A stretch of 46,559 nt of DNA from contig LBYP01000012.1 of NCBI GenBank assembly GCA_000996245.1, positions 1-46,559 of the forward strand, read 5' to 3'. Positions 39,649 through 46,312 of the stretch are shown one piece after another. The position numbers and the translations under genes were made by a program. The notes below the pieces were generated by a model. That model made no database searches, had not been told where the DNA came from, and worked only from the letters and a program-made list of their open reading frames with translations. The DNA comes from Parcubacteria group bacterium GW2011_GWA2_40_23 (lineage in GTDB: Bacteria > Patescibacteriota > Patescibacteriia > UBA11705 > JABHMO01). Positions within the stretch are counted from its first letter, which is position 1. Each line of letters begins with the position of its first letter.

Positions 39649-39686
39649 AAAAAAAAGAGCCCCTTCGCGCAGATGCGAAGGGGCTC
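39649..39686 (-). terminator. Terminator of the Cys-rich protein gene
   Basis: GAGCCCCTTCGC and GCGAAGGGGCTC (39657-39686) form a perfect 12-bp stem, followed on the minus strand by TTTTTTTT. A second strong hairpin (CTGGCA/TGCCAG with inner TCAGG/CCTGA) lies just before it, at about 39695-39726. Confidence 0.9.
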
Positions 39687-39733: not shown

Positions 39734-42172
39734 TTAGTTGCCGCAGAAAAGCGTTTCGAAGTCGACGATGGCGACGCCGAGGTCGCCCATGGTGACGTTG
39801 GGGTCACCGCTCGGTGTCGGGTCGGGACGGATCCAGGCTCCGACGTTGCAGATGAGGGTCACGTCGACACCCCCACCCCACTTCCAGACGCCGTCGCTCA
39901 AGTTGAGCTTGAACTCGGGGTTCTTCGTCCCCCACTCACAGAGCGAAGCCTGCGTCATGGCGAAGGAAGCTCCGCAGGTGACCGTGATGTCGAGGTTGTC
40001 TCCGTACCAGATGACGGCCTCGGTCCACGCCGGATTGGCCGTGGGGCAGTTGACCTGGCAGACCACGTCATCGGTCTGGACGCAAGTGTTACCCTCGCAA
40101 ACCGTACCAAAACCGCACTGGGCGTCATTTCCGCACTCGACACAGCCGTAGCTCATCGTGGTATTACTCCAAATGCACTTGGGCAATCCCATGGTACAGC
40201 CCCAGTCCGTAGCCATGGCCGGAGCGTTCTCTGCCACGTGGCACTGGTAGCAGTGCTTCTCCGCAGTGACCATGTCTACCTCACAGAAGTACTGGCCATT
40301 CACGAAGTTGCTCCCCTGGCAGTCCGCATCAGTCTGACACGAGAACTGCTCCACTGGGATACACTGGCTGTTCTGGCACGCCGTTCCCTCGGGACACGGC
40401 AGACCGTCGTAACATTCGTAGTCGACGCACTTGCCAGCCCCGAAGTCGCAGGCGCCGGTGCCGAAGCAATCGGAGTCGACAGCGCACTCGGGGTAGCCGC
40501 TGTTGTTGTTGTAGTAACAGGTACCCAAGATACAGGTCCCGTCGCTAGCCGGGCAGTCGGCATCGTTCGTGCACTCTATCGGGTACTCGCATCCGTAGAT
40601 TTTGACGTCTACGGTGAAGTCCCAGGAGTCGAGCTGGCACGCACCGCTCGTTTCGCAGTTCGCGTACTGGATCAGAACACCACCACCCGCGTTGTCGCAC
40701 CAGGACTGCACTTGGCAGTCATTGTCGTCGGCGCAGTGCGTGCAGTGTTCCTTGACGTTGTGGTAGCACTCGGTCATCCCGCAGAAGTCCGTGGTACACG
40801 GATCCTTGTCGTCGCAGTCGGCCGAGCTCTCGCAGACGAGATCCTCGCACCAGAAGACCGAGTAGTATTGGCCTTCGTTGCCGCCGATGCCCCAGAAACA
40901 GAGCTCCCAGGGCAGGCACTCGTTCTGCTCCCCTCCACCGCTGCACTCTTGGCACAGCTTCAGCGGAGTTCCCGGCTCTCCGGACGCAACACAGTAGTCG
41001 CCGAAGCCGGAACCGAGGCAGTCCGAGTCGTACTCGCAGGTGAGCATCTTGGGCTCTCCGTCGAGGCAAAGCTTGTCGTGCTCGCAGGTGGCGCCGTTGC
41101 AGAAATCCTGCGTGCACACGTCGTTGTCGTTGCAGTCGGAGTCGACGTGACAGCAACCTGGAATCGGAATGTACTCGCACTTGTTCATCGGATCTGTGCC
41201 CACGGGATTCACCACGCACATATCGACCGTGCAGTAGTCCCCGTCTTGGCAAACCAGATCGTGGACGCACTTCCCGTCTTCGGTAATGTTGTCCGTGCAG
41301 ATATTTCCATCATCACAGTTTCCAGCTGGAGTGTCGTTCCAGCAGTATCCGGCCTCGCAATGACCCACCAGACCACCGACCTCGCAAGTCGCATTGTTGT
41401 CCGGAAGGAGCCAGCAAGAATTGTCAGCTCCGCAAACCGGAGACTTCGTGCACGGATTGTTGTCATCCGAGCAAATATTGCTCTGATCGCTACAACACTC
41501 AGCCTTGAACCTCATCTCGCAGGTTCCAAAGACGCACTCGTCGTCCCGGCAGGGATCGTTTGCACCAGCGCAGTCGGCGTCGTTCTGGCACTCGGCCTTG
41601 CAGGCTCCATCGTGGCACTCGCCGTCCTTGCACTTCTGCCCACCGGCACACTCGCCGATCAGGCAGTAGTCGTTGATGGTGCAGGGATCGTTGTCGTCGC
41701 ACTCGCGACCGTTGTTCGGGTTCATCTGACAGAACCCGTTCGCGCAGTACGGATCGTAGCACTGGCCAGGCGCCTGGCAGTCGTCGTCGACGTTGCAGGT
41801 GTAGGCGCAGGCGCGCTGTCCCACCTGGGACTCGTAGCACTCCATGCCTTCCCCGCACTTGTACTGCTCGTGGTAGCAGATGCCCCACTGGCAGTGGTCG
41901 ATCGTACAGACGTTGCCGTCGTCGCACTCGAGGTCGTTGTGGCAGGTCGGGGTCGTGTCGGTCGTGGTCTCCACCGCGGTGTCGTTCTTCACGACGTCGG
42001 GACAGGTGTCGATCGCCGTGTCGGTCTGGACTTCCGGTCCGGACTCGTTGGCGATGTCGGCCGCAACTTCACCCTGGATGTCGTTGTCGACGGGGGTGAT
42101 GTTCGAACCGCTGCAGTTGATGAACATGACGCCGAAGGACAGGACGAGGACGGTGGTCAGCACTCGGTTCAT
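39734..42172 (-). CDS. Large secreted Cys-rich repeat protein (GC-rich cassette)
   Basis: The 812-residue product starts MNRVLTTVLVLSFGVMFINC, an export signal with a non-canonical lipobox-like Cys. An acidic Thr/Asp-rich linker (about 20-65) follows, then some 600 residues of Cys-rich repeats of the type CDDGNVCTIDHC, CDDNDPCTINDYC, CNDNDVCTQDFC, CDDKDPCTTDFC, with DxDC spacers. Such repeats are common in surface proteins of Myxococcota. The last roughly 110 residues are a different, Trp-containing domain. The ATG at 42172 is preferred over the GTG at 42181: AGAGG lies 8 nt upstream of it. GC-rich and monocistronic, with a perfect terminator. Surface location and disulfide-rich structure are inferred. 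Confidence 0.85.
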   Translation of the reverse strand: MNRVLTTVLVLSFGVMFINCSGSNITPVDNDIQGEVAADIANESGPEVQTDTAIDTCPDVVKNDTAVETTTDTTPTCHNDLECDDGNVCTIDHCQWGICYHEQYKCGEGMECYESQVGQRACAYTCNVDDDCQAPGQCYDPYCANGFCQMNPNNGRECDDNDPCTINDYCLIGECAGGQKCKDGECHDGACKAECQNDADCAGANDPCRDDECVFGTCEMRFKAECCSDQSNICSDDNNPCTKSPVCGADNSCWLLPDNNATCEVGGLVGHCEAGYCWNDTPAGNCDDGNICTDNITEDGKCVHDLVCQDGDYCTVDMCVVNPVGTDPMNKCEYIPIPGCCHVDSDCNDNDVCTQDFCNGATCEHDKLCLDGEPKMLTCEYDSDCLGSGFGDYCVASGEPGTPLKLCQECSGGGEQNECLPWELCFWGIGGNEGQYYSVFWCEDLVCESSADCDDKDPCTTDFCGMTECYHNVKEHCTHCADDNDCQVQSWCDNAGGGVLIQYANCETSGACQLDSWDFTVDVKIYGCEYPIECTNDADCPASDGTCILGTCYYNNNSGYPECAVDSDCFGTGACDFGAGKCVDYECYDGLPCPEGTACQNSQCIPVEQFSCQTDADCQGSNFVNGQYFCEVDMVTAEKHCYQCHVAENAPAMATDWGCTMGLPKCIWSNTTMSYGCVECGNDAQCGFGTVCEGNTCVQTDDVVCQVNCPTANPAWTEAVIWYGDNLDITVTCGASFAMTQASLCEWGTKNPEFKLNLSDGVWKWGGGVDVTLICNVGAWIRPDPTPSGDPNVTMGDLGVAIVDFETLFCGN

Positions 42173-42306
42173 GGTCAGCACCTCTGCAAGCGTGGTTTTC
42201 TAAACCACTTGGTTTTGACGCACCTGAACTAGGGTTCTAAACCCAGAAAAAAAGACTAATCAGGATAGCATTTTCTTCTAAATTTAGGACTTTTATCTAA
42301 CACCAG

Positions 42307-42335
42307 AGTATAGCATGTAATTTTAGAAAAGTCAA
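42307..42335 (-). promoter_or_regulatory. Promoter of the Cys-rich protein gene
   Basis: TTGACT (42330-42335) and TATACT (42307-42312) on the minus strand are 17 bp apart with a TGC extended -10. The 130-nt leader contains short hairpins (GGGTT/AACCC; TGGTTT/AAACCA). Confidence 0.8.
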
Positions 42336-42352
42336 GAGCATTAATCCGATTT

Positions 42353-42510
42353 GCGAGCCCCACAATTCTAAAACATTTTAACGTGGTGTTTACCCTGCAC
42401 CTAAAGGGAACACTTTATGGTACAGGGTGGGAATCTCTTAATCATATCCTAAGGAAACGATGTAATAGATTACTTCGTCACCTGCGTGAAATTACGAGAT
42501 CCTCACAAAG
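42353..42510. repeat. Nested-inverted-repeat element, copy 1
   Basis: It begins GATTTGCGAGCCCCAC, contains AATCTCTTAATCATATCC then TAAGGAAACGATG and AGATTACTTCGTC, and includes the inserted hairpin with AAAGGGAACACTTT. It separates the C-B unit from the Cys-rich gene. Confidence 0.75.
42392..42428. repeat. Inserted hairpin with AAAGGGAACACTTT core
   Basis: ACCCTG (42392-42397) pairs with CAGGGT (42423-42428). The core is shared with 19119-19151 and 45461-45487. Confidence 0.65.
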
Positions 42511-42514
42511 AAAA

Positions 42515-42543
42515 GCGCCTCCCCAGATGAGCCGGGGAGGCGC
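42515..42543 (-). terminator. Terminator within copy B of the 3' element
   Basis: Perfect 10-bp GC stem with loop GGCUCAUCU (RNA), followed by UUUUC on the minus strand. Confidence 0.9.
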
Positions 42544-42675
42544 GCGAAAGCAACGAATCACTCGGTGAGGAGTGGCAGCGTTCCAGCTGCACGTCCGATT
42601 CAGCTTAATCGGGAAAGCCTCTTTCGAAGCCATCTCACCACTAGGGCTTGCAGCAGGTGACGCTGAGAACAGGGT
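42515..42675 (-). ncRNA. Structured 3' RNA element, copy B
   Basis: Read on the minus strand: CAGC-GUCACCU-GCUG hairpin; outer stem GGUGAG/CUCACC (42634-42639 with 42564-42569) enclosing GGCUUC-GAAA-GAGGCU, CCGAUU/AAUCGG and GCAGC/GCUGC hairpins; then a 10-bp terminator stem GCGCCUCCCC/GGGGAGGCGC (42515-42543) and UUUUCUUU. It closes the two-gene unit 44135-42754. Paralogous copies lie at 44520 and 45515. No coding potential; whether it is cleaved off as a separate RNA is unknown. Confidence 0.75.
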
Positions 42676-42753
42676 GACCGAGTTGGTCGGTTCTGAGCTT
42701 TATGACAGCTCGCCGACCGGGTAGCGAAAAGCGCACTTGACGCTCCTTCCGAG

Positions 42754-43533
42754 CTACTCGAGGCAGGAATCCGACGTCCCGTCTTCGTTGACGGCGTCGC
42801 AAAGGCCGTAGCCGCAGCCGGGGGCGTCCGTGGAGCCAAGCTCCGTAGACGCGCTGTTGATGGTGCAGCTCTTCGGCGCGATGCCGTCGAGCCACTGACC
42901 GTTCGCGACCTCGCCCTGCGTCAGCTTCGTCCAGAAGCCACGCGTGACGTTGTCGACGGCGTAGAACTTGGTGCTGGTGCCACACCCGTGCTCGTCCATC
43001 GGGATGTTCCAGTGGAACCCCCCGGACTCGCTCGGATTCTGGACGCCGGCGCCGAAGTTCACCATCTTGCCGGTGTTGGCCAGGCTCCCGTCCCAGCAGC
43101 AGGTGATGGAGTAGAACTCCGCCTGCGGCTCCACGGGGTCGACGGGCTCGGGCTCGACCGTGTAGGGCGTGCACACGAACTGCTGCGGGTGGCAGAACAC
43201 CGTGGTGTCTCCGTCCCGCTGGCAGCTGTCGCCGTCCTTGGTCGTGGCGCCGGTTCCGTCCTCGTTCATCACGGTGAAGAACTCGACGTCGCAGCCCGCC
43301 TCGCAGCGGTAGACGTCGAACTCCAGGTCCTCGGACGCGCCCTCGGCGAGAACGCACAGCTTGTCGTAGCTGCAGTCCTCGTCGGAGAAGCACTGGTCCG
43401 GGTCCCACACCGCGGTGTTGTTCGCACCGCTGACGTCGACCGGCAACGTGCCGTTGACGTCCACGACGTTGTCTTTCCCGCAACCGAACGCGAACAGAGC
43501 CAGGCACAGGGCGAACAGGGTGTTGCGCAGCAT
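42754..43533 (-). CDS. GC-rich lipoprotein
   Basis: The 259-residue product begins MLRNTLFALCLALFAFGCGKDN, a lipoprotein signal with lipobox AFGC, so it should be lipid-anchored outside. The rest is Cys-rich and acidic, with the phrase CFSDEDCSYDKLCVLAEGASED resembling the repeats of the Cys-rich protein at 39.7 kb, then an uncharacterised domain (FYSITCCWDGSLANTGKMVNFG, GFWTKLTQGEVANGQWLDG) and a C-terminus with APGCGYGLCDAVNEDGTSDSCLE. The ATG at 43533 has GGAGG 7 nt upstream; an in-frame ATG at 43581 with GAGGAG 9 nt upstream would give a 16-residue extension. It follows the 43728-44135 gene with no convincing promoter between. Confidence 0.8.
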   Translation of the reverse strand: MLRNTLFALCLALFAFGCGKDNVVDVNGTLPVDVSGANNTAVWDPDQCFSDEDCSYDKLCVLAEGASEDLEFDVYRCEAGCDVEFFTVMNEDGTGATTKDGDSCQRDGDTTVFCHPQQFVCTPYTVEPEPVDPVEPQAEFYSITCCWDGSLANTGKMVNFGAGVQNPSESGGFHWNIPMDEHGCGTSTKFYAVDNVTRGFWTKLTQGEVANGQWLDGIAPKSCTINSASTELGSTDAPGCGYGLCDAVNEDGTSDSCLE

Positions 43534-43657
43534 GATCGTTCCTCCATGGTTGATGACGCAGCCGTTGTTGGTCGAACGCATGATCCAGTTCTCCTCGTAT
43601 CAGTTTTTAGCACCTTTTACCCATCTCAGAAGACAACCCATGTTATCTCCTAGGATG

Positions 43658-43687
43658 ACGGGGCCAGCAACTGTTTGCTAGGCCCCT
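43658..43687 (-). other. Intercistronic hairpin without U-tract
   Basis: On the minus strand GGGGCC-U-AGCA and UGCU-GGCCCC pair, giving a strong stem between the two genes of the unit, but GUCAUCC rather than a U-run follows. It may tune read-through or protect the upstream message. Confidence 0.6.
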
Positions 43688-43727
43688 GGTTGTATCACCG
43701 ACGATGCGCCGGTGAGATTGTTGTCGA

Positions 43728-44135
43728 TCAGCGACCGGGCATGTTGACCGTGGTGTGGTCGCCACCACCGCAGTAGCCGGCGCCGCACACGCCTCCGACG
43801 GTAGCGCCGGCGACGATGACCGCGAGGCCGGTCCAGACGTACCAGTGGTCGTACCAGGGATCTCCCTGGATGACGACCGGCGCCGGCAGGACGGTGACGT
43901 CGACCTTGTTGACCGGGGTCACGATGACCTCAGCCTTGGCCGGCAGGACGGTGACGTTGTTCACGACGTTGTTGTTCGGCGCGAACGTCGGCTTCACCAG
44001 CACGCTGGCCTTGGACGGCTGGACCACGATGTCCTGGTGGATCACCTCGTCAGTGGAGTTGACCTGCGCGACCGCGACGAGCGGCGCCAGGGTGAGCACG
44101 AACGTGAACAGGGCGAGCAGGGAGAGCTTCCTCAT
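43728..44135 (-). CDS. GC-rich secreted or anchored small protein
   Basis: The 135-residue protein has a signal peptide (MRKLSLLALFTFVLTLAPLV, likely cleaved after AVA). A Val/Pro/Thr-rich stretch with repeated VLPA(K/P)..VIV/VVI phrases follows (KAEVIVTP, NKVDVTVLPAPVVIQG), then a hydrophobic span (about 100-118, VWTGLAVIVAGATVGGV) and a Gly/Cys tail (CGAGYCGGGDHTT). It may be anchored by the C-terminal span. No family is recognised. GGAGG lies 9 nt before the ATG. It is the first gene of a two-gene unit with the lipoprotein. Confidence 0.78.
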   Translation of the reverse strand: MRKLSLLALFTFVLTLAPLVAVAQVNSTDEVIHQDIVVQPSKASVLVKPTFAPNNNVVNNVTVLPAKAEVIVTPVNKVDVTVLPAPVVIQGDPWYDHWYVWTGLAVIVAGATVGGVCGAGYCGGGDHTTVNMPGR

Positions 44136-44179
44136 CTGTCAGTTCCTCCAGGTTGTGAATACCGCGGTTACGACCTTGT

Positions 44180-44232
44180 CAGTCGTTCCCCTTCTCAGTT
44201 TTCCCTTAGAAAACCAGGAAAGGGAGCGACCG
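44180..44232 (-). promoter_or_regulatory. Leader hairpin of the 44135 unit
   Basis: On the minus strand GTCGCTCCCTTTC and GAAGGGGAACGAC pair (with G-U pairs), containing an inner GGTTTTC/GGAAAAC hairpin. Long leader hairpins also precede the genes at 45158 and 46312. Confidence 0.65.
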
Positions 44233-44255
44233 ATTCTTTATGTGTTTAACAGGAT

Positions 44256-44284
44256 AGTATAGCATACTTAGATTTTTTTGTCAA
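44256..44284 (-). promoter_or_regulatory. Promoter of the 44135-42754 unit
   Basis: TTGACA (44279-44284) and TATACT (44256-44261) on the minus strand, 17 bp spacer, TGC extended -10. The 80 bp upstream (44285-44370) contain a CCCAGAACC/GGTTCTGGG hairpin and two copies of GGGT(T/G)CTGGGCAAGGC. Confidence 0.88.
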
Positions 44285-44369
44285 GTACCCAGAACCACTC
44301 GTTCCTCGGGTTCTGGGCAAGGCCCTGAACAACTAGTTACTATCGGGTGCTGGGCAAGGCTGCCATACC

Positions 44370-44517
44370 GATTTGCGAGCCCCACGATTCCAAATGATTA
44401 GAGAGCGCTGGGGCGTGGCAATCTCTTGATCATATCTTAAGGAAACAATGTAAAAGATTGCTTTGTCCCCAGCACAAGATGCGTAGTTCCTGCCTACCAG
44501 AAGGCAGGCTCGCAAAG
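44370..44517. repeat. Nested-inverted-repeat element, copy 2
   Basis: CGATTTGCGAGCCCCACGAT ... GGCAATCTCTTGATCATATC ... AAGATTGCTTTGTCC ... GGCTCGCAAAG: outer arms TTTGCGAG/CTCGCAAA and inner arms CAATCT/AGATTG are nested. It lies directly after the 3' element of the collagen-like gene. Confidence 0.75.
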
Positions 44518-44519
44518 AA

Positions 44520-44685
44520 AAGCGCCCCCCCAGATGAGCCGGGGAGGCGCGAGATCAGCAACGAATCACTCGGTGAGGAGCGGCAGCATTCCGGCTGCAC
44601 GTTCGATTCCAGCGAATCGAGAAAGTCTCCTATGAGACCTCACCACTTTGCCCTAAGACCAGCAGGTGACGCTGAGAACAGGTGT
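44520..44685 (-). ncRNA. Structured 3' RNA element, copy D
   Basis: Same architecture as copy B: the conserved 5' block CUCAGCGUCACCUGCUG, outer stem GGUGAG/CUCACC, hairpins GGUCUC-AUAG-GAGACU (44624-44639), UCGAUUC/GAAUCGA (44603-44620) and GCAGC/GCUGC, then the terminator stem with loop GGCUCAUCU. Compared with copy B, the third pair of the first hairpin changes C-G to U-A and the first pair of the second changes C-G to U-A, keeping pairing. Confidence 0.75.
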
Positions 44686-44705
44686 AACCAGACACGAAGC
44701 CTTGG

Positions 44706-45158
44706 TTACTTCATCGTGGGCACGGGCACCCCGTTGATGGTGACCGCTGACCCGTTCGCCGCGTAGATGTTTTGCTCGAACATCACGCGCGGCTTGTATA
44801 CCGGCGCGGGCACCTCGACGAACCGCGGGATGCAGCCGCCGGCGTGGTGGCAACAGCCGTTGAGGCAGATGCCGTCCAGACCGTCGTTGCCGGTGTCACC
44901 CTTGGCGCCGGTGTAGCCGCGCGAGCCCATGGGACCGATGTCGCCCTTCTCGCCGTTGAGGCCCGGGAGACCGATGTCGCCCGTGTCGCCCTTCTCGCCT
45001 TGGGGACCGGTGTCACCCTTGAACGTGGTGACGCCCAGTTCCTCCATCGCGGTCAGGACGGCGGCGGGCATGTCGGCCTTCTTGACCACCTTGGTCATAC
45101 CATAGCCCAGCAACCCGATCAGCAGGAACGCGCACACGATCGCAGTCAGGATACGCAT
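44706..45158 (-). CDS. Collagen-like membrane-anchored protein (GC-rich cassette)
   Basis: The 150-residue protein has an N-terminal signal anchor (MRILTAIVCAFLLIGLLGYG), a short helical linker, then 16 uninterrupted Gly-X-Y triplets (about residues 48-95, GDTGPQGEKGDTGDIGLPG and onward). A Cys cluster (ICLNGCCHHAGGC) and a C-terminal beta-type domain of about 40 residues (VMFEQNIYAANGSAVTING) follow. Such domains form triple helices on bacterial surfaces; the C-terminal part may trimerise. The start is set by GGAGG 5 nt upstream. It stands alone between promoter and 3' element. Confidence 0.85.
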   Translation of the reverse strand: MRILTAIVCAFLLIGLLGYGMTKVVKKADMPAAVLTAMEELGVTTFKGDTGPQGEKGDTGDIGLPGLNGEKGDIGPMGSRGYTGAKGDTGNDGLDGICLNGCCHHAGGCIPRFVEVPAPVYKPRVMFEQNIYAANGSAVTINGVPVPTMK

Positions 45159-45190
45159 CTCTTCCTCCAACATGGTTGTCGAACGTTTCG

Positions 45191-45214
45191 GACGTGGATA
45201 CCTTACGGCTCCCT
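45191..45214 (-). promoter_or_regulatory. Conserved leader box (GGTATCCACGT)
   Basis: On the minus strand AAGGTATCCACGTC follows the right arm of the leader hairpin. The same box occurs before the gene at 46312 (46345-46366), just after a hairpin ending in GGGAACC. Confidence 0.7.
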
Positions 45215-45297
45215 AAAGCACTCGTTAATTCGTTATCAAAGCCTGAAAAAATCATCTCACCGCTCAGTACAATTCGAACAAGTAGCTTTAGGGAACC
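45207..45297 (-). promoter_or_regulatory. Leader long-range hairpin of the collagen-like gene
   Basis: GGTTCCCTAAAGC (45285-45297) pairs with GCTTTAGGGAGCC (45207-45219), a 13-bp stem enclosing about 65 nt. It lies in the 5' untranslated region. Confidence 0.75.
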
Positions 45298-45324
45298 TCT
45301 AATCCAATTTGATTAGAACATAGC

Positions 45325-45353
45325 ATTATAGCATACATACATTTTTTTGTCAA
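45325..45353 (-). promoter_or_regulatory. Promoter of the collagen-like gene
   Basis: TTGACA (45348-45353) and TATAAT (45325-45330) on the minus strand, 17 bp spacer, TGC extended -10; both hexamers are consensus. Confidence 0.9.
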
Positions 45354-45357
45354 GCAT

Positions 45358-45515
45358 CATCCGATTTGCGAGCCCCACAATTCTTAATGATTAAAGAGCG
45401 ATGGGGCGTGGCAATCTCTAGATCATATCCTAAGGAAACAATTCAGGAGATTGCTTCCCCGTACCAGAAAGTGTTCCCTTTCGGTACAGGGTAAACATCG
45501 TTCCTCCTCGCAAGA
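45358..45515. repeat. Nested-inverted-repeat element, copy 3
   Basis: TCCGATTTGCGAGCCCCACA ... GGCAATCTCTAGATCATATC ... GAGATTGCTTCCCC ... CTCGCAAG, with the inserted GTACC/GGTAC hairpin at 45461-45487 carrying AAAGTGTTCCCTTT. It separates the 45776 gene's 3' element from the promoter of the collagen-like gene. Confidence 0.75.
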
Positions 45516-45665
45516 AAAGCGCCCCCCCAGATGAGCCGGGGAGGCGCGCGAAAGCGACGAAATCACTCCGTGAAGAGTGGCAGCATTCCGGCTGCACGTC
45601 TAATTCGGCAAATCAGTAACCTCACCACTTCGCTTGGTAGCCAGCAGGTGACGCTGAGGACGAGA
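45515..45665 (-). ncRNA. Structured 3' RNA element, copy E (shortened)
   Basis: It retains the CUCAGCGUCACCUGCUG block, GUGGUGAGG and its partner CUCUUCAC, the GCAGC-CGGAAU-GCUGC hairpin, and the terminator with loop GGCUCAUCU, but the region of the two covarying hairpins is reduced. It closes the unit of the 45776 gene. Confidence 0.7.
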
Positions 45666-45775
45666 TGTCGTCGTCGGTGTGGGTGGGGCTTGAAGCCCTA
45701 TAGTCACCCAAATCCGACCGGGTACGGCTCGAACACGTTCACCTCCGAAGAGGTTGGTCCTCTCCCGGCTTCTGC

Positions 45776-46312
45776 CTAGGAGAAGAACACTCCCAAGATC
45801 ACCAGGAACGCGACCGTACAGACGATCGGGATGAGCCACGCGGGCAGCTCGTCCTCGACGACGGTCACGGTCTCGAGCTCGGGCTCGGTGCGCTGGGCGG
45901 CCGGCTTGTCGATGACCGGCTTGGGAGCCGGCTCGACCTTGGCGGTCACGGCGGGCTTCGCCTCGGGCTTGGTCACGACGGCCGCGGTCGTGGCGGGGGC
46001 CGGCTTCACCTCGTCGACCTTGGGGGCGTCGGCAGGCGCAGGGGACGGCAGCACGACGTCTGCGACGGTCGCGGACGTGTCGTCGGTCGGCAGCTTCGGC
46101 GCGGCGCCGATCAGGGTCTCGGCGGCCGGCTTGGGCGCGGGGGGCGGCTCGTCGGCCTTCTTCAGTCCCTTGAAGAAGGCCGAAACATCGGTCTGTTCGT
46201 CCTCGTCGACGAACTCGGACTCGGACTTCCGCCCCTTGATGACGCGGATGACGAGCAGTACCCCGAGCACGATGGCCAACGCGACTGCGACGGAAATCAA
46301 CACGGCTTGCAT
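45776..46312 (-). CDS. GC-rich protein with N- and C-terminal membrane spans and Pro/Ala-rich middle
   Basis: The 178-residue protein starts MQAVLISVAVALAIVLGVLL (span about 3-22), then a basic-acidic stretch (IKGRKSESEFVDEDEQTD) and a long Pro/Ala/Val/Lys-rich low-complexity middle (repeats of AxAPKP and VxKPEAKPAV type). It ends in a second span (about 157-178, WLIPIVCTVAFLVILGVFFS) reaching the last residue. The C-terminal span would suit a tail anchor. The ATG at 46312 has GGAGG 6 nt upstream; a longer in-frame reading to 46384 runs into the leader. No family is recognised. Confidence 0.78.
   Translation of the reverse strand: MQAVLISVAVALAIVLGVLLVIRVIKGRKSESEFVDEDEQTDVSAFFKGLKKADEPPPAPKPAAETLIGAAPKLPTDDTSATVADVVLPSPAPADAPKVDEVKPAPATTAAVVTKPEAKPAVTAKVEPAPKPVIDKPAAQRTEPELETVTVVEDELPAWLIPIVCTVAFLVILGVFFS

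Follow-up and report, generated by a model that had tools for sequence, protein, structure and literature searches.

A pseudoknot RNA element shared by a Patescibacteria gene cluster and tailed-phage contigs

Three element copies in a GC-rich gene cluster

The window analyzed here is the whole 46,559-nucleotide stretch of contig LBYP01000012.1 (C12), one of 37 contigs in the 1.22-Mb genome of Parcubacteria group bacterium GW2011_GWA2_40_23 (GenBank assembly GCA_000996245.1). Five GC-rich genes lie in four same-direction units at the contig end, delimited by predicted promoters and terminators (Table 1), and a structured RNA element occupies all three internal junctions (copies B, C, and D), with a plain terminator alone at the final end. 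We are confident that the three copies are members of one uncatalogued RNA class that is common in tailed-phage contigs. A sequence-only reading of the window had described three minus-strand elements that end separate units with an identical terminator loop, and this was confirmed: each copy sits between a stop codon and a terminator, pairwise identity is 84%–86%, the terminator loop is the same in all three, and a terminator scan recovered every terminator. The stretch CTCAGCGTCACCTGCTG is invariant in the three copies, an observed count that was reached in 0 of 100 shuffles. The proteins encoded upstream of the copies are mutually unrelated, as had also been noted, and a co-directional gene lies downstream of each copy.

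Table 1. Positions in the window of the gene cluster, the element copies and their parts
Feature	Position	Strand	Remarks
Gene cluster	39734-46312	-	Five GC-rich genes in four units (178, 150, 135+259, 812 amino acids), at contig end
Copy D	45512-45661	-	
Copy D, P1	45642-45656	-	CAGC-GUCACCU-GCUG; loop forms pseudoknot 5' strand
Copy D, GGUGA	45622-45626	-	Pseudoknot 3' strand
Copy D, P3	45600-45616	-	CUGAUU-UGCC-GAAUUAG; GCC loop, directly after pseudoknot as in phages
Copy D, intrinsic terminator	45519-45547	-	
Promoter of next unit after copy D	45325-45353	-	TTGACA-17-TATAAT, extended -10
Copy C	44515-44679	-	
Copy C, P1	44660-44674	-	UCACC loop
Copy C, GGUGA	44640-44644	-	Pseudoknot 3' strand
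Copy C, P2	44626-44637	-	Extra hairpin inserted ahead of P3
Copy C, P3	44603-44620	-	GCUG loop
Copy C, intrinsic terminator	44522-44550	-	
Promoter of next unit after copy C	44256-44284	-	TTGACA-17-TATACT
Copy B	42508-42670	-	
Copy B, P1	42651-42665	-	UCACC loop
Copy B, GGUGA	42635-42639	-	Pseudoknot 3' strand
Copy B, P3	42595-42612	-	CCGAUU-AAGCUG-AAUCGG
Copy B, P4 and P5	42559-42590	-	GCAGC/GCUGC and CACUC-CUCACC-GAGUG; present in C and D too
Copy B, intrinsic terminator	42515-42543	-	
Promoter of next unit after copy B	42307-42335	-	TTGACT-17-TATACT
Terminator of last unit	39657-39686	-	Sequence differs; no RNA element ahead

Taken singly, the copies fold better than their shuffles (z -3.4 to -4.0). 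Their minimum-energy folds disagree with one another; a shared structure of 39 pairs is complete in each copy. The compensatory changes that had been reported exist, with double-sided changes at one pair of P2 and two pairs of P3, but covariation among three sequences is by itself weak and was equalled by 29 of 500 shuffles. Similarly thin was the claim that the pairs work only for the minus-strand RNA, as only one or two G-U pairs per copy break on the opposite strand. The view that the RNA alone is conserved held in so far as the RNA is the best-kept part; the spacer from each terminator to the next promoter is shared too, at 66%–71% identity versus 84%–86% for the RNA. Given this difference and the unrelated upstream proteins, we conclude that the duplicated unit was an intergenic cassette, within which the RNA portion changed least. 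The spacers also carry a genome-wide dispersed repeat, GATATGAT..AAGAGATT..CACCCTGTACCATAAAGTGTTCCCTTTAGGTGCAGGG (42344-42485, 44366-44473, and 45359-45497), which recurs on contigs C3, C7, C15, C18, and C24 of this genome.

Phage homologues and the pseudoknot core

Every copy begins at its 5' end with the hairpin P1, CAGC-GUCACCU-GCUG, whose loop segment UCACC is complementary to a downstream GGUGA within AGUGGUGAG, giving an H-type pseudoknot that is followed by hairpin P3 with a GCU/GCC-type loop (AAGCUG, GCUG, and UGCC in B, C, and D, respectively). P3, with its GC(U/C/A) loop, comes shortly after GGUGAG, in the canonical place in copy D and behind an inserted P2 in copies B and C. The outer GGUGAG/CUCACC stem proposed earlier was not upheld, the best-supported partner of GGUGAG being the UCACC loop, with CUCACC at most an alternative. 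Viral homologues of the P4–P5 module alone were searched for and none was found.

The pattern GCGTCACCTGC-N{3,32}-GTGGTGAG matched at least 120 stretches in IMG/VR viral contigs, a lower bound on viral abundance, compared with three for the reversed pattern, and most of these matches share features that lie outside the search pattern. After the exclusion of a few matches plainly within genes, 90 non-redundant phage copies were analyzed. The next, free (third) pair of P1 is Watson-Crick in 81 of them, against 40.4 expected from base frequencies (G-C 38, C-G 32, A-U 10), an A immediately precedes GUGGUGAG in 84, and P3 with its GC(U/C/A) loop follows in 74 versus 13.6 in shuffles. When a covariance model (R2) was built from 15 phage copies only, the window copies topped the whole genome at 25.4, 21.2, and 21.1 bits, with the next match at 12.5, a ranking that is partly circular because the phage copies had been retrieved with a window-derived pattern. 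This circularity does not extend to the covariation and P3 tests, which concern other positions or deliberately altered ones. A BLAST search of the elements against named phages gave one useful match, Microcystis phage Mel-JY33. Vibrio phage Va2 lacks P1 and was not counted as a homologue; a reading of the sequences upstream of P1 in phages as -10 boxes was likewise set aside, since many of them form the distal arm of a separate hairpin.

We scanned for variants that break one pseudoknot pair and then checked the opposite position. Where the C-G pair was broken, all 18 matches were compensated (A-U or U-A); six of these loci are independent, all of them A-U, while a T-A group (L151 and others) resembles a protein-coding repeat and is to be discounted. 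Both matches with a broken A-U pair were G-C, one of them possibly coding, and a U-to-G change was met by C opposite in six of seven cases, the seventh resembling coding sequence. The G-C form lies between two genes of Mel-JY33; in a related contig, L055, the pair is U-A. From these compensated variants we infer that three pseudoknot pairs change together across independent lineages, and the class is very probably defined by an H-type pseudoknot (P1 loop GUCACCU plus AGUGGUGAG) and, after it, a hairpin whose loop is of the GCU/GCC/GCA type. Accordingly, a conserved, structured minus-strand RNA, as first described, is strongly supported, through the phage homologues rather than the three copies alone. 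That the copies are simply a recently duplicated intergenic cassette with no RNA function is consistent with the repetition of the spacer that leads to the following promoter, but is very improbable, since the RNA is better kept than that spacer and the phage homologues covary; the pseudoknot pair changes refute its strong form.

In L026, L027, L048, L142, L145, and L170, the core takes a variant form whose P3 loop is of the AGCAGA/AGCAGU type; it lies in large non-coding, apparently structured regions, which in L026, L048, and L142 are near tmRNA or tRNA genes.

Gene context and possible functions

In phages, the gene after the element is almost always co-directional with it: the orientations of the upstream and downstream neighbors were (+,+) in 53 cases, (-,+) in 17, (+,-) in two, and (-,-) in one. 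The ratio of divergent to convergent gaps was thus 17:2, versus 32:39 in other gaps of the same contigs (Fisher p 0.0006), and this orientation bias implies that the element matters for the sequence downstream of it. No single type of gene follows the element in phages: genes for replication initiation, ParB-like, nucleotidyltransferase, and structural proteins as well as tRNAs were seen. Some copies have tmRNA nearby or are embedded in tRNA arrays; the L099 core begins about four bases past the end of a tRNA-His, ahead of a tRNA-Ser. Searches of 36 whole records, 35 of them viral contigs and the other a named phage, showed a single copy in most contigs and two in a few. The variety of genes, the tRNA neighbors, and the single copy per genome together argue for a general function in cis. 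In nine contigs (L041, L044, L045, L064, L102, L107, L134, L128, and L051), the order is element, P3, terminator, ribosome-binding site, and ATG, and in L137, a promoter-like sequence comes after the terminator, giving the same element-terminator-promoter-gene order as in the window. Terminators placed between the element and the first gene point toward antitermination.

Two further observations concern other contigs. A phage tmRNA gene (L034:338-738, with the same sequence in L106) encloses a pseudoknot core, and downstream of the element in L067:6591-8859, the Rfam family sRNA-Xcc1 was matched four times, at best just under the cut-off.

Our analysis makes it an evenly balanced proposition that this widespread phage RNA class, a pseudoknot-hairpin of 43 nucleotides, contacts RNA polymerase or the ribosome, controls downstream phage genes, and has been exported to a Patescibacteria-type chromosome. 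More specifically, and more tentatively, we favor a put-like, cis-acting antitermination or read-through RNA. Such an element would act in cis in the nascent transcript, contacting a host machine that is conserved universally (RNA polymerase being the likeliest) and letting it pass downstream terminators, as with the put RNA of phage HK022. In the window, read-through would join the four units into one operon, an arrangement that would account for the absence of a copy from the last unit. The likeness to HK022 put (putL and putR), which was compared by its published structure, is one of anatomy only: like put, the element would be a cis-acting nascent phage RNA of similar size, with two structural domains and a position ahead of phage genes and terminators.

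Several points weigh against this reading. Put consists of two stem-loops and forms a V shape with a triplex, with no pseudoknot reported (PMC9378689), in contrast to the covarying pseudoknot found here. Every window unit owns a strong promoter, so that read-through is not obviously needed, and a terminator-like hairpin was present within 200 nucleotides downstream in just 14 of 80 phage copies, versus 23 of 282 other gaps. The phage gene calls behind the context results are codon-based and were made for this analysis, and the strong conservation seen in GCGUCACCUGC and GUGGUGAG partly reflects selection by the window-derived search pattern. Finally, 39 of 108 phage copies begin no more than 30 nucleotides past a stop codon (6.5% in the null), a closeness that would also fit an intercistronic or 3'-end role.

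Such a role is the substance of the explanation ranked second, and the main rival to read-through control, namely that the element is a transcript stabilizer. A compact pseudoknot would block exonucleases; the shielded end would be the 3' end of an mRNA or tRNA upstream or, once processing has occurred, the 5' end of the RNA downstream. The stop-codon proximity in phages, the location of all window copies between stop codon and terminator, the copies that directly follow tRNAs, and the strong 5' hairpins on two or more of the four window mRNAs are in line with this. REP/BIME intercistronic stabilizers are likewise structured RNAs often found just past a stop codon; they are not pseudoknots, however, and occur in many copies per genome, while the present element usually occurs once per phage record and avoids convergent ends. 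Indeed, only two of 19 non-collinear cases were convergent, although a 3' protector should favor such ends, and because of this orientation test, the 3'-stabilizer reading was demoted. In addition, the last window unit has no element, and the strict sequence conservation suggests a specific partner. We therefore regard stabilization as rather unlikely; the stabilizing 3'-end role considered in the sequence-only reading is weakened, the phage element being tied to downstream sequence, including 5' leaders.

The leader-terminator-ribosome-binding-site anatomy of several phages would also suit an attenuator or riboswitch-like leader, in which a ligand or protein bound to the pseudoknot would control the next gene through termination or translation. 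Known pseudoknot aptamers are of a size similar to that of the element, yet the downstream genes are too diverse for a single ligand, which leaves this option unlikely. More improbable still is a trans-acting or decoy RNA cut from longer transcripts, such as a type III antitoxin-like pseudoknot or an anti-defense RNA. Single copies per phage record, positions in tRNA/tmRNA arrays, and compactness are in its favor, and the type III antitoxin RNAs (ToxI and relatives) are small H-type pseudoknots as well. These, however, are tandem repeats beside an endoribonuclease toxin gene, whereas the element forms no tandem arrays (the window copies are 1–2 kb apart), has no consistent partner gene, and lies inside mRNAs in the window, where no nuclease family was found among the genes and Rfam models had no match. 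The core within the phage tmRNA gene likewise recalls tmRNA pseudoknots, but both a tRNA-like part and a tag frame are absent from the window copies, and no tmRNA match was obtained in the window.

If the element is a true antiterminator, RNA-only antitermination, best known from HK022, would be far more widespread across phages. More generally, the element offers a new handle on how phages act upon host gene expression.

Distribution and genomic setting

In the window, Rfam 15 gave no match above any family's gathering cut-off, and the homologue loci gave tRNA, tmRNA, and unrelated matches only; the element had no match among the Rfam ribozyme families. We found no published description in a literature search whose coverage lacked most subscription journals. 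The class, whose RNA is compact and shows strong covariation, thus occurs in some hundred or more phage contigs and stands outside Rfam 15.

Further homologues in Patescibacteria, for which a search had been proposed with the sequence-only reading, were scarce. Model and pattern searches of 380 genomes of the phylum detected clear copies, by model, in this genome only, with copies essentially absent from the 379 others sampled and the remaining model matches at noise level; a DNA search likewise gave clear copies in this genome only. One further likely member, L170 (same class), emerged by pattern, with a pseudoknot-like core that has an A-G mismatch next to the P1 loop and is followed by a hairpin ahead of a co-directional gene. 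L169 and L172 were rejected as apparent chance matches within genes. A pattern search of genome contigs revealed a similar element in a Patescibacteria metagenome-assembled genome (L145).

The G+C content at third codon positions (GC3) of the cluster genes is 0.81–0.94, versus about 0.3 in their neighbors and 0.26 in EF-Tu; the element therefore probably arrived together with foreign DNA, as part of a GC-rich gene island. Very GC-rich genes (GC3 0.6–0.94) are scattered through the genome (39734-46312 and 2416-3303 in the window; loci L008, L011, L019, and L022), often near dispersed repeats, and we read them as foreign gene islands.

The cluster proteins are membrane, collagen-like, lipoprotein-like, and Cys-rich, with the lipoprotein signal predicted from sequence. 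The unit closed by copy C encodes a membrane-anchored protein of 150 amino acids with a collagen-like repeat (44706-45158), and a search for viral or plasmid relatives of the protein ahead of copy B returned none. A promoter scan placed a near-consensus extended -10 promoter at the head of each of the four units. Strong 5' hairpins were found in the mRNAs of the 812-amino-acid gene (42170-42300, z -2.8) and the 135+259-amino-acid unit (44155-44250, z -3.2), and a weaker one at the mRNA start of the collagen-like unit (45217-45320, z -1.6).

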